A stretch of DNA of 64,000 bases, from the NCBI RefSeq assembly GCF_900113605.1, contig NZ_FOPY01000002.1, forward strand, positions 1-64,000, in the 5' to 3' direction. Each line of letters starts with the position of its first letter. Position 1 is the stretch's first letter. The notes beneath the pieces are model-generated. The model saw only the letters and a program-made list of their open reading frames with translations. It was not told the DNA's origin and did not search any database. This stretch comes from Modicisalibacter xianhensis (GTDB lineage Bacteria; Pseudomonadota; Gammaproteobacteria; Pseudomonadales; Halomonadaceae). This document shows positions 6,424 through 10,575 of this stretch, in pieces. The position numbers and the translations under genes were made by a program.

Positions 6424-7455
6424 ATGAAGCTTGGACGCCGCCAGTTCCTGTCAGCATCGGCCGCCCTGGCCGCTGCCAGTACTGCCCCCACCCTGTTCGC
6501 CCACACAGGCATGAGCGCTTCGCCACCGGATCGTTATCCGGCCGATGCCTGGAAGATCGTCGATGAACGTTTCCGCGATTATTTCCTTTTCAATACACCG
6601 CTGCAGCGCCAGTGGACCGGCGGGTTGTGGCTGGAGGGGCCGGCCTGGAATGCCGTAGGCCGCTACGCCGTTTTCAGCGACATTCCGCGCGCCCGGCAAA
6701 TGCGCTGGGACGAAGCCACCGGACAGGTCAGCGTACTGCGCCACAAGGTAGGTCACTCCAATGGCAACACCTTCGATGACCGCGGTCGCCTGGTCTCCTG
6801 CGAGCACTCCCCAGCGCGCGTGATCCGCTACGAATGGGATGGAACTACCACCGTACTGGCCAGCCAGTACCAGGGCAAGCCGCTCAACGCCCCCAATGAC
6901 CTGGTAGCGCTGCCCTCGGGCGGCATCATCTTCACCGATCCCGGTTACGGGGCCCACGTGGAATATGAAGGGCACAAGCGTGAACTGCAGCTCAAGCCGG
7001 CCATCTACTACATCGACGACTCACTGGACGAGCCGATCCTGCTGACCGACGAGATCCACAAGCCCAACGGCATCGCGCTGACCCCGGACGGCAAGGCCTT
7101 TTACGCCAGTGACACCGCCCCGTCGCACTTCCCCGACCAACCGGCGGCCATCATCAAGTGGTCCCTGGCAGAAGATGGCAAGAGCGTCAGCAACCGACAG
7201 GAAATCGTTACCAGCAACAGCACCACCTATGATGGCCTGACCTGCGACGTGCACGGCAATATCTGGTCGAGCGCCTCGGGCGGCGAGAGCGTCGACGGTG
7301 TGGCGGTGTTCACTGCGGATGGCACCCTGCTGGGCCGCATCTTGCTACCCGAAATCTGCTCCAACGTCTGCTTTGTCGGCGAGGATCGCAACCAGCTGCT
7401 GATGACCGCCAGCCAGTCGATCTACACGCTGTACACCGCCACTCAGGGCGCCTGA
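6424..7455 (+). CDS. Tat-exported SMP-30/gluconolactonase-like protein
   Basis: Beta-propeller lactone hydrolase of 343 residues in the SMP-30/gluconolaconase/LRE family, which opens sugar lactones using one divalent metal. The N terminus MKLGRRQFLSASAAL is a twin-arginine signal, so the folded enzyme should be exported. Metal-site style elements are visible: EGPAWNAVGRYAVFSDIP near residue 70, SNGNTFDDRGRLVSCEH near 120, LNAPNDLVALPSGGIIFTDP near 160 and KPNGIALTPDGKAFYASDT near 220. The substrate is unknown. A strong terminator follows directly, so this looks like a monocistronic gene. Confidence 0.85.
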   Translation: MKLGRRQFLSASAALAAASTAPTLFAHTGMSASPPDRYPADAWKIVDERFRDYFLFNTPLQRQWTGGLWLEGPAWNAVGRYAVFSDIPRARQMRWDEATGQVSVLRHKVGHSNGNTFDDRGRLVSCEHSPARVIRYEWDGTTTVLASQYQGKPLNAPNDLVALPSGGIIFTDPGYGAHVEYEGHKRELQLKPAIYYIDDSLDEPILLTDEIHKPNGIALTPDGKAFYASDTAPSHFPDQPAAIIKWSLAEDGKSVSNRQEIVTSNSTTYDGLTCDVHGNIWSSASGGESVDGVAVFTADGTLLGRILLPEICSNVCFVGEDRNQLLMTASQSIYTLYTATQGA

Positions 7456-7477
7456 TCCCGGCCCTTGGCCAACCAAC

Positions 7478-7520
7478 CGCCAGCCGCCACCCATTTGTGA
7501 AAGGGTGGCGGCTGGCGTTT
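7478..7520 (+). terminator. Rho-independent terminator after the SMP-30 gene
   Basis: A perfect 15-bp GC-rich stem (7478-7492 with 7503-7517), a 10-base loop and a TTT start of a T-rich tail lie 22 bp after the stop codon. Confidence 0.8.
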
Positions 7521-7690: not shown

Positions 7691-8509
7691 ATGACTCTCG
7701 ACCAGTTCTTCGCCAAGCTTTGGAACGACTACACGGCGATGACGCCGCAGGCCCAGCGCATTCACGATGCGTTTGTCGCCGACGGCGAGGCCATCATCAA
7801 CGATCATGTCGCTTTCCGCACCTTCGATCGCGGGCCGATTACCTTGGCCAATCTCGAACCACACCTGCTGGCGCTGGGCTATACCCGCTTCGAACCTTAC
7901 GACTTCGCCGCCAAGAAGTTGCGCGCCTACGGTTACCTGCCCCCCTCTGAAGAACAGCCGCGCATTTTCCTGTCGGAACTCAAGTGCGATGAGCTTTCGA
8001 CGACCGCTCAGCGCATCATCGACGGGCTCGTCGGCCAGATCGATGCCGCCCGGGTGGGAACACCCGAAGTGATGTGGGCCGGCCGCCTATGGGATGCCCC
8101 CAGCTTCGAGGACTATCAGACCCTGATGGACGAGAGCGAGTATGCCGCCTGGCTGTCGATCATCGGCTTGCGCGCCAACCATTTCACCATCAGCGTCAAC
8201 CACTTCCAGACCTACGACAGTGTCGAGAAGGTGCTCGACAAGGTCGAGTCGCTGGGCCTGGGCATCAATGCCTCGGGCGGGCGCATCAAAGGCTCGCCCG
8301 AGGTGCTGCTGGAGCAGGGCTCGACGTTGGCCGACCGCGCCGAGTTTACCTTCGCCGGTGGTCAGGTCGAGGAAATACCCACCTGCTACTACGAGTTCGC
8401 CAAGCGTTATCGCGCCAGTGACGGTAGGCTCTATCAGGGCTTCGTGGCCGCCAGCGCCGACAAGATTTTCGAATCCACCGATGTCCGGGGCGCTCGCCAT
8501 GCTGGCTGA
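7691..8509 (+). CDS. DUF1338 (HglS/YdcJ-like) VOC-fold iron enzyme
   Basis: Protein of 272 residues in the DUF1338 family. Its characterised member HglS is a VOC-fold Fe(II) enzyme converting 2-oxoadipate to D-2-hydroxyglutarate in lysine breakdown. The three likely metal ligands are His39 in NDHVAFRTF, His164 in RANHFTISVN and Glu235 in CYYEFAKRY, matching the family's His-His-Glu pattern. It is shorter than HglS (about 450 residues), as in the gammaproteobacterial short form. It overlaps the start of astE by 11 bp, so the two are co-translated. The context points to amino-acid catabolism near arginine/glutamate rather than proven 2-oxoadipate chemistry. Confidence 0.8.
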   Translation: MTLDQFFAKLWNDYTAMTPQAQRIHDAFVADGEAIINDHVAFRTFDRGPITLANLEPHLLALGYTRFEPYDFAAKKLRAYGYLPPSEEQPRIFLSELKCDELSTTAQRIIDGLVGQIDAARVGTPEVMWAGRLWDAPSFEDYQTLMDESEYAAWLSIIGLRANHFTISVNHFQTYDSVEKVLDKVESLGLGINASGGRIKGSPEVLLEQGSTLADRAEFTFAGGQVEEIPTCYYEFAKRYRASDGRLYQGFVAASADKIFESTDVRGARHAG

Positions 8510-9485
8510 GTGGCTCGACCTGACGCTGGACGGTGAGCTGCCCTCTGACACTCAGGGGCGGCTGCCCTTCGGGCGTTATGTCCTTCACGGACCGGGCATT
8601 CTCGAACTGGCACCCAGTTCGCTTCAGCCACAAGCTCGGGCGGTGATCGTCTCCGTCGGCATCCACGGCAACGAAACCGCCCCCATCGAGCTGCTAGGCG
8701 AAATGCTTGCCCGTCTGGAAGCCGGCCTGCTGCGCCTCGGCGCCCCGACGCTGATCATTCTCGGCAACCTGCCCTCGATTCGTGCCGGACAGCGCTTTTG
8801 CGAAACCAACCTCAATCGCCTGTTCCGCCGCGATCAAGACGAACCGGGCGACGAGCCGCAACGGGCCCGCGAGTTGATGGCAGCTGTCGATAGTTTCTAT
8901 GCGCGCCACTCCCAGCCGCGCCTGCACTACGACCTGCACACCGCCATTCGCGATAGCCGCTTCCCCCGCTTTGCCGTCGAGCCCTACGCAGATAACGGCA
9001 TCCATGCCGAGCAATGGCGCTGGCTCGCCGCAGCCGATATCCAGGCGGTACTGCATCAGCATCAGCACAGTTGGACGTTTTCGCACTATTCGAAGCATTA
9101 CTATCAGGCGCAGGCGTTTACTCTCGAGCTGGGCAAGGTGCACCCCTTTGGCGAAAACGATCTAGCAGTACTTCGCCCCATGCGACAACTGCTCGAAGCG
9201 CTGCTCGAAGGGCGCGAACCGCCCGGCGCCGACCCCGATGCCATGAAATTCTTCACGGTAGCGCATGAGCTGATGCGCGAAAGCGAGGACTTCCGCCTGT
9301 GCTTTCCCGACGATACGCCGAACTTCAGCGAATTCGATGTCGGTACCCGCCTGGCCTGTGATGCCAAGGCGGGCGAGTTTATCGTCACCGAGCAGCCCTT
9401 GGCGGTGGTCTTTCCCAACGCTCACGTGGAACTCGGGGCCCGTGCCGCCCTATTGGTACGCGCCACGACGACACCGCAGAATTAA
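8499..9485 (+). CDS. astE: Succinylglutamate desuccinylase
   Basis: Zinc hydrolase of 328 residues that performs the last step of the arginine succinyltransferase pathway, splitting N-succinylglutamate into succinate and glutamate. Zinc ligands are visible as His56 and Glu59 in GIHGNETAPIE and His147 in YDLHTAIRDS, and the catalytic Glu210 is in FTLELGKVHPFG. The length fits the family. The ATG at 8499 begins the conserved start MLAEWLDLTLDG; a second ATG at 8481 is possible. The remaining ast genes are not in this window. The gene sits between the DUF1338 gene and an arginine/ornithine-type ABC transporter. Confidence 0.9.
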   Translation: MLAEWLDLTLDGELPSDTQGRLPFGRYVLHGPGILELAPSSLQPQARAVIVSVGIHGNETAPIELLGEMLARLEAGLLRLGAPTLIILGNLPSIRAGQRFCETNLNRLFRRDQDEPGDEPQRARELMAAVDSFYARHSQPRLHYDLHTAIRDSRFPRFAVEPYADNGIHAEQWRWLAAADIQAVLHQHQHSWTFSHYSKHYYQAQAFTLELGKVHPFGENDLAVLRPMRQLLEALLEGREPPGADPDAMKFFTVAHELMRESEDFRLCFPDDTPNFSEFDVGTRLACDAKAGEFIVTEQPLAVVFPNAHVELGARAALLVRATTTPQN

Positions 9486-9565
9486 CGTTAGCGGCACATG
9501 CTACCTAGACGGCGCCGCATAGAATAAAAAACTTTTTCATTACAATAATTTAGAGGAAATTTACC

Positions 9566-9610
9566 ATGAACCCTCCAATATCGTCAGACCAAAGTCGTAA
9601 CTCTGGGTGA
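9566..9610 (+). CDS. Possible 14-codon leader ORF
   Basis: A very short reading frame (MNPPISSDQSRNSG) has an AGAGGAAA ribosome-site-like sequence 7 bp before its ATG and lies in an A+T-rich stretch between astE and the aot leader. It has no recognised composition such as a run of Arg or His codons, so an attenuation role is not indicated. It may be chance. Confidence 0.2.
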   Translation: MNPPISSDQSRNSG

Positions 9611-9624
9611 ACAACCCGCTCTGA

Positions 9625-9656
9625 ATCGGCGTCGAACGCCTGTTAGAATCGCTGCC
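9625..9656 (+). promoter_or_regulatory. Candidate promoter of the aot operon
   Basis: TAGAAT at 9644-9649 matches five of six bases of a sigma-70 -10 box. The region about 17 bp upstream (CTGAAT) is only a weak -35 match. Transcription from here would give a leader of roughly 150 bases before aotP. Confidence 0.3.
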
Positions 9657-9701
9657 TTTTCTGCGGCATCACGCTGCGTCAGCTCGCATCGATACACCGT
9701 A

Positions 9702-9804
9702 CAGGTGACTTACGAAACGGCCCGCCCAGCCCCGGCTCATGCCGGCCCTGACCTGGGCACGGTTTCGTAGGTGACCTGACAAGCCAGTCACCGGAGCCCG
9801 ACTC
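9702..9804 (+). promoter_or_regulatory. Structured RNA leader with alternative hairpins before aotP
   Basis: Two 17-base arms (9702-9718 and 9762-9778) pair with one mismatch and one G-U pair. They enclose nested stems GCCCAG/CTGGGC (9724-9729 with 9753-9758) and CCGGC/GCCGG (9732-9736 with 9741-9745). A third segment, AGTCACC at 9786-9792, is complementary to GGTGACT of the first arm, and its GTCACC also pairs with GGTGAC of the second arm. It lies against the GGAG ribosome site before the ATG at 9805. The pairings are mutually exclusive, as in a cis-acting switch. No known riboswitch class was recognised. Confidence 0.5.
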
Positions 9805-10575
9805 ATGGCCGAAACGCCCCTTCCCCTCGAAGTGCGCAACCTACGCAAGCGCTTCGGAAGCAACGAGGTCCTCAAAGGCCTGTCCCTGCAAGCCCATCAG
9901 GGCGACGTGATCACGCTCATCGGCGCCTCCGGCTCCGGCAAGAGCACCTTCCTGCGTTGCATGAACCTGCTCGAGCAACCCAATGAGGGCGATATTCTCG
10001 TGCATGGTGAGGAGATTCGCTTCAAGGAAACCCGCCATGGCCGCGAGCCCGCCGACTGGAAGCAGGTCGAGCGTATCCGCGCCAAGCTGTCGATGGTCTT
10101 CCAGGGCTTCAATCTGTGGGCGCACATGACGCTGCTCGAGAATGTCATCGAAGCGCCGATCCATGTGCTCAAGAAGCCCCGCAAGGAAGCCATCGAGCAG
10201 GGCCGCGCCCTGCTCGATCGCGTCGGCCTGCTCGAGCGCGCCGACTATTACCCGGCACAGATGTCCGGGGGGCAGCAGCAGCGCGGTGCTATCGCCCGTG
10301 CCCTGGCCATGGAGCCGGAAGTCATGCTGTTCGACGAGCCGACCTCGGCACTCGATCCGGAGCTGGTCGGCGATGTGCTCAAGGTAATGCGCGACCTGGC
10401 CAAGGAAGGACGCACCATGGTCGTGGTCACCCACGAGATGGCCTTCGCCCGGGATGTGTCCAGTCAGGTGATCTACCTGCATCAGGGCGTGGTAGAAGAA
10501 GCCGGGCCGCCCGCAGACGTGCTGGACAACCCGCGCTCCGAGCGTCTCAAGCAATTCCTCGCGCCCAAGCATTGA
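9805..10575 (+). CDS. aotP: Basic amino-acid ABC transporter ATPase (AotP/HisP/ArtP type)
   Basis: ATP-hydrolysing subunit (256 residues) of a polar amino-acid importer, most like arginine/ornithine or histidine systems. Walker A is GASGSGKST (about residues 39-47), the Q-loop is MVFQGFNLW, the signature is [14 protein letters not shown] and Walker B is [13 protein letters not shown], followed by the switch His in VVVTHEM. The signature has Gly where most relatives have Val (QQQRVAIARAL), which is a mild oddity. The operon order is ATPase, two permeases, two binding proteins. A structured leader precedes it, and the upstream neighbour astE supports arginine/ornithine as substrate. Confidence 0.88.

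Follow-up and report, generated by a model that had tools for sequence, protein, structure and literature searches.

A lineage-specific hairpin in the probable leader of an aotP-like gene of Modicisalibacter xianhensis and two sister species

What kind of element is a long hairpin directly ahead of an amino acid transporter gene? Structured 5′ UTR hairpins are a general kind of element in bacterial operons, and the hairpin described here shares with them a stable stem placed between promoter and ribosome site, a lineage-limited distribution and a fast-changing interior; it differs in having no Rfam family. With translational riboswitches, the aotP leader would share the possibility, indicated by folding predictions, of mutually exclusive pairings near the ribosome site, but the hairpin occurs in three species only and its ribosome site is predicted not to be strongly buried. 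SpeFL-type leader peptides, which sense ornithine, exemplify leader control by a basic amino acid; unlike them, the aotP hairpin holds no shared coding frame. A leader peptide inside the hairpin was considered and rejected, as the frames shift between the three species (judged by eye).

For genes of arginine/ornithine uptake, the aotJQMP operon of Pseudomonas aeruginosa has been described, in whose activation ArgR and CbrAB take part (PMC8871633). The passages concerned describe activation by regulators, not by leader RNA, and the operon offers no precedent for a leader switch. In the open-access literature we found nothing on an aotJQMP leader, on a Halomonas arginine leader RNA or on a candidate motif of the aotP leader. 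The first-pass annotation of the locus, which had proposed mutually exclusive hairpins as a regulatory leader, knew of no class with this structure. This is borne out by the absence of Rfam matches at 9480–9900 (up to E 5) and at eight related loci (up to E 0.5); at the gathering score, Rfam recognises in the whole window only a TPP riboswitch (RF00059, 31721–31837, minus strand, 62.5 bits).

Genomic context and predicted promoter

The window, that is, the whole analysed stretch of 64,000 nucleotides, stems from a 4.36-Mb genome of the family Halomonadaceae, whose AotP is 91% identical to that of Halomonas sp. PR-M31. A five-gene cluster for a basic amino acid ABC transporter begins at 9805 (Table 1); downstream of aotP, two binding proteins resemble the lysine/arginine/ornithine family TIGR01096 with scores below its cut-off. 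Upstream, at 8502–9485, lies astE, scoring above the cut-off of the astE model, and the hairpin sits between astE and the cluster. When 201 family genomes were searched for aotP relatives, 186 matched; among the matches listed, 135 of 140 places had astE at most 700 bp ahead of aotP. These 140 upstream places comprise 30 plus 110 loci, with one genome (G001) appearing twice and at least nine listed rows left out. A −10-like match was present in 137 of the regions; 135 entered the leader-fold and TGN counts, 132 the small-frame scan, 131 the tests of anti-ribosome-site helices, 85 the codon-position test and 62 the consensus. A second aotP-like gene in G001 (L156, contig C18) is without the family promoter pattern.

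Is the hairpin transcribed? Ahead of a TAGAAT-like hexamer, the TGN of an extended −10 element is found in 131 of 135 aotP leaders (among the matches listed), and in the window the pattern predicts a start at ~9656. Since this position lies upstream of 9702, the hairpin would be transcribed, and the region is, judging from its sequence, very probably the leader (5′ UTR) of aotP; a start downstream of 9702, which the first-pass annotation had named as speaking against its proposal, is not indicated. Where the spacing is shared (62 places), the best-conserved stretches of the consensus include a −35-like block (cCTGCC; the window has CTGAAT at 9621–9626), the −10 element and then a block of CGCCCC plus a T run.

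Table 1. Features of the aotP locus in the window
Feature	Position	Strand	Basis or remark
ATPase gene (aotP/hisP-like), first gene of the cluster	9805..10575	+	best NCBIfam model HisP, score below the model cut-off
Extended −10 promoter element TGTTAGAAT, predicted start ~9656	9641..9649	+	sequence pattern in family leaders
Small 5′ hairpin, TGCGG (9662–9666) with CCGTA (9697–9701)	9662..9701	+	predicted in all three hairpin genomes
Alternative local pairing, CACC (9695–9698) with GGTG (9704–9707); could occupy the 5′ arm	9695..9707	+	constrained fold; in the third species, a C-G becomes U-G
5′ arm of the long stem, CAGGTGACTTACGAAAC	9702..9718	+	fold and arm comparison
Nested inner hairpin	9719..9761	+	22–47% different between species, folds in all three
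3′ arm of the long stem, GTTTCGTAGGTGACCTG	9762..9778	+	fold and arm comparison
Alternative hairpin GGTGACCTG..CAGTCACC, whose end abuts GGAG	9770..9792	+	predicted, +3.3 kcal/mol (window)
GGAG ribosome site	9793..9796	+	read in the sequence; GGAG in aligned leaders, GGTGGA in genus g4

Upstream of the promoter, 85 of the 140 regions (among the matches listed) follow a design of fixed spacing, consisting of an A-rich block, a ribosome-site-like stretch with an ATG, GACCAAnGTCG and the promoter. The window's copy spans 9541–9610, with an AACAAYAA-like A-rich block and its ATG at 9566; from ATG to −10 the distance is 75 nt here and 78 nt in 62 places. The inverted repeat GACCAAAGTCG at 9587–9597, ~64 bp before the predicted start, matches the family's GACCAAnGTCG at fixed spacing and is a candidate activator site. 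After removal of redundancy, a small frame that starts at the upstream ATG is open in 39 of 47 cases, where shuffles give an expectation of 0.52; the two other frames are open in 13 and 25. In the window and in G008 the small frame ends early, after 14 codons. Changes at codon positions 1, 2 and 3 number 89, 76 and 84 over 26 pairs, so even a spread that the peptide sequence is not constrained, and a functional peptide was rejected although the frame is open more often than chance. Within the A-rich blocks, AANAANAA occurs in 31 of 47 against 0.038 expected, with no exact copy in the window, and resembles the Hfq/Crc site of Pseudomonas amiE, AAAAAUAACAACAAGAGG, as printed in the methods of PMC6422490 (the results print a slightly different end). 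A search of the open-access literature on Crc/Hfq in Halomonas returned nothing on topic.

A long hairpin in three sister species

Folding confirms the long stem with nested inner stems that had been noticed in the sequence. Its arms pair at 16 of 17 positions, with one G·G mismatch and one U·G, and RNA 9696–9810 reaches −56.1 kcal/mol as compared to −38.7 (s.d. 3.4) for shuffled sequences (z −5.18; 0 of 200 as good); for the longer RNA 9644–9830, z is −2.64, with 1 of 200 shuffles as good. The 5′ part of the window's leader, where the small hairpin is predicted, folds otherwise when more coding sequence is included. When 3196 stretches of 115 nt were taken from both strands of the window at every 40 bases, 82 were at least as stable (47 after GC correction), which places the energy of the hairpin in the top few percent without making it unique. 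Inverted repeats of 16 out of 17 pairs with at most one G-U and a loop of 3–60 occur twice in the 64-kb window, at the hairpin and at 7475–7520. The latter, with 16 of 17 pairs and no G-U, lies just after an ORF ending at 7455 and is possibly its terminator. Between 9000 and 10500, no terminator-like site was found (loops of 3–8 only), and no U run follows 9778 in the sequence, as an attenuator built on an intrinsic terminator would have it.

Over 135 family leaders (among the matches listed), the mean fold z is −0.32, little better than shuffles. The window is the most extreme of this set, with z −4.4, and the two other hairpin genomes score −2.5 (G008) and −2.2 (G003); as G188, G176, G187 and others without the hairpin also fall below −2 (among the matches listed), by z alone just the window leader stands out. 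Unrelated long or terminator-like hairpins lie between promoter and ribosome site in other lineages, namely in L120 and L198 (G188, G140), in L115 (G176), and in L122 together with other g2 leaders. Their z values are −2.9, −2.1 and −2.5, the consensus fold of g2 lacks significance (z −1.2), and hairpins in the aotP leaders of other lineages may have arisen more than once.

How widely is the hairpin itself distributed? A covariance model built from the leaders of the three hairpin genomes (G000, the window's own, G008 and G003) matched 3 of 275 Halomonadaceae genomes, these same three and each time before aotP; beyond these hits it recognised only their opposite strand, in two of the three. 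Of 390 genomes sampled across the order, one matched, the window's own. Both searches used stricter filters, with which weak matches may be lost. Together with the missing library match, this narrow range speaks against membership in a riboswitch class, for which a conserved core in many species would be expected. A plasmid collection yielded one weak match, covering 34% of the query. The 11 other members of the genus have no such hairpin, and in their leaders 59 to 90 nt separate the −10 hexamer from the start codon. A tree built on the aotP region from 13 of the 14 genus members and three others of the family (G013, whose locus was too short, was left out) unites the three hairpin genomes with a support of 0.999. 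The best-supported account, on present sequence comparisons, is a young, lineage-specific hairpin that would have been gained in the ancestor of three sister species.

Among these species, 4 of 36 columns vary in the arms (9702–9720 plus 9762–9778) as compared to 55 of 134 at the four-fold sites of aotP (Fisher P 0.0004), and 5 of 54 vary when spacer and ribosome site are added to the arms (P 8e-6), with both column sets selected once the alignment had been inspected. The interior differs pairwise by 22–47% but folds in each species, with z values of −2.2, −1.6 and −3.3 (matched by 14, 39 and 1 of 500 shuffles). Taken jointly, the three leaders have a consensus fold of −50.0 against −35.3 for column shuffles (z −4.0). 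Changes in the outer stem consist of two A-U/G-U exchanges and, in G003, the loss of the U·G through a one-base deletion and a C-G turned into C·A. Two-sided changes affect none of the 16 outer pairs, 1 of the 35 pairs of the whole fold, an inner one, and none of the alternative pairs. Arms and fold alike have been retained across the three species; because there are only three sequences, selection on pairing is not proven.

Pairing next to the ribosome site

The first-pass annotation had noted that segment 9786–9792 (AGTCACC) can pair with either arm and had read this choice as the architecture of a leader that toggles access to the ribosome site. The dual pairing holds in all three species. 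Including G-U, the longest run is 7 pairs long for the 5′ arm and 6 for the 3′ arm, the values in G003 being 7 and 5, and both runs recurred in 0.34% (window), 1.5% (G008) and 1.9% (G003) of trials when the 14-nt spacer was shuffled, a support that is nominal, the feature having been picked after the fact. The proposal is supported in part: the strong nested hairpin and a third segment able to pair with either arm are there, whereas the toggle as an established switch is not supported. The long stem dominates the predicted ensemble, and GGAG is predicted not to be strongly buried. Forcing the 3′-arm pairing takes the fold 3.3, 4.8 and 4.0 kcal/mol above the ensemble (G000, G008 and G003, respectively) and forcing the 5′-arm pairing 8.2, 10.0 and 6.7 kcal/mol; at 3.3 kcal/mol, simple arithmetic assigns the 3′-arm alternative about half a percent of the molecules at 37 °C.

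In all three species, a weak local stem is predicted to engage the first two Gs of GGAG (pairing probability 0.75–0.99). In the window leader, GGAG is opened at a predicted cost of 1.9 kcal/mol whether the hairpin is present, absent or excised in silico; in an RNA that begins behind the 5′ arm, the cost is 3.0 kcal/mol. To open the wider footprint, −20 to +12, the full leader requires 10.3 kcal/mol, the leader lacking the hairpin 8.9–9.1 and the RNA that begins behind the 5′ arm 14.7; the three hairpin leaders require 10.0–11.4, other family leaders 7.5–13.7. By prediction, these costs suggest that the 5′ arm shields the ribosome site from the 3′ arm, while the whole hairpin is near neutral.

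Might the leader still be a real switch? The long stem would then be the open state, and if the 5′ arm were taken up by a protein, a small RNA, a processing cut or the upstream CACC, the foot of the 3′ arm would pair with CAGTCACC (9770–9792) and block the ribosome site. The low cost of the 3′-arm alternative (3.3–4.8 kcal/mol) and the rise of the footprint cost upon loss of the 5′ arm speak for such a device, and the G·G mismatch, which keeps GGTG in both arms, is identical in all three species. The alternative pairs are likewise present in each of them, with 33 of 33 cells standard, yet every shuffle reaches the same value and the count therefore says little. Against a switch stand the predicted predominance of the long stem and, in G003, the loss of one G from the 3′ arm, which shortens the alternative hairpin. 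GTCAC adjoins the ribosome site in 4 of the 11 hairpin-free sisters (G001, G006, G012 and G013), which makes the segment probably older than the stem and counts against a switch, as does the lack of a ligand and of covariation among three sequences; none of the computed results points to an amino acid or protein ligand. Taken together, we consider a real switch unlikely, though worth serious thought.

A family-wide helix at the ribosome site, formed by a 5′ element, CGCGCCAG, with CUGGAGC, was rejected as unproven. Consensus folds computed genus by genus hinted at it (g1 minus the hairpin clade, with z −4.6 relative to column shuffles; g2; g12 together with g13), and 638 of 786 cells pair over 131 leaders (among the matches listed). 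In a chosen set of 40 out of ~76 distinct block pairs, which leans towards pairing because all g4 rows and many poorly pairing rows were left out, 90.8% of cells pair as compared to 89.8% (s.d. 0.7) in shuffles, 50 of 500 of which reach the observed value; when slid, the blocks pair at 26–48%. The two elements are complementary, with covariation not above shuffles. On average, the helix has a predicted probability of 0.03, and pairing with the ribosome site rises when the 5′ ends are shuffled (0.26 vs 0.07; the shuffle spreads the U run). CGCGCCAGCC, just after the predicted start in relatives (L187, L240), is complementary, in many genera, to CTGGAGC at the ribosome site; it is absent from the window's group.

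What the hairpin may do

What is the role of the hairpin, if it is not a ligand switch? We lean, with confidence that is evenly balanced, towards a lineage-specific, self-contained 5′-UTR hairpin with a mild effect on translation or message stability. A short ancestral aotP leader would have gained a 77-nt self-complementary stretch in the ancestor of the three sister species, and this stretch would fold into one long hairpin that loops itself out, with 14 nt and GGAG remaining beside it, so that ribosome access is predicted to be about the same as without the hairpin. The 5′ arm would be protective, holding a 3′ arm that would otherwise be free for AGTCACC and for a hairpin touching the ribosome site. 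As a counterpoint to such neutrality, the hairpin is predicted to make the footprint slightly less accessible (10.3 vs 9.1 kcal/mol), and the low variation of both arms and the spacer could reflect a more active role than that of a tolerated loop. What computation shows is that the stretch folds, that the hairpin is narrowly distributed, that its arms vary little and that its carriers form a single group. From this we infer that selection acts on the RNA form and that the net effect is a mild one.

Long leader stems elsewhere serve as RNase III sites or 5′ stabilisers, and the hairpin could similarly act on the message instead of on initiation. A long stem with small interruptions and arms that vary little would fit, but the mismatch and bulges break up a perfect helix, and we find this quite doubtful. 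Alternatively, the arms might matter as DNA, with a regulator binding inverted GGTGAC/GTCACC half-sites and the RNA fold a by-product. A DNA-level role of the arms is possible, given that they are conserved as sequence and that GGTGAC-N11-GTCACC forms an inverted repeat at 9770–9792; such a site would, however, lie ~115–135 bp downstream of the predicted start, and the interior would need no refolding. With one mismatch allowed, the forward strands of G000, G003 and G008 hold 8, 17 and 11 copies as compared to 9, 17 and 16 of a control, and in G000 and G008 the leader itself holds the sole perfect copy. We regard a regulator site as very improbable. Insertion of a mobile palindrome of the REP or MITE type into the leader would account for a gain in one group that is missing in the sisters, but it is largely refuted and has next to nothing in its favour otherwise, as the three genomes hold no second copy where a dispersed repeat would have several (no place outside the leader matches the arms with fewer than 2 mismatches), the model finds only aotP leaders in 275 genomes, and a target-site duplication was not seen (by eye only).

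A bolder reading would be a young, group-specific RNA switch, in which the 5′ arm acts as a protector strand that keeps the 3′ arm off a pre-existing GTCACC. The short ancestral leader would thereby have been made two-state, and the G·G mismatch would be the price of having GGTG in both arms. We rate this as improbable. If the leader is not a switch, it counsels caution: dual complementarity is easily had when arms hold the odd palindrome GGTGACC, and conserved pairing potential is then no evidence of a toggle. If it is a true switch, the three species would document the birth of a regulatory leader inside one genus, with the hairpin-free sister species as natural controls.
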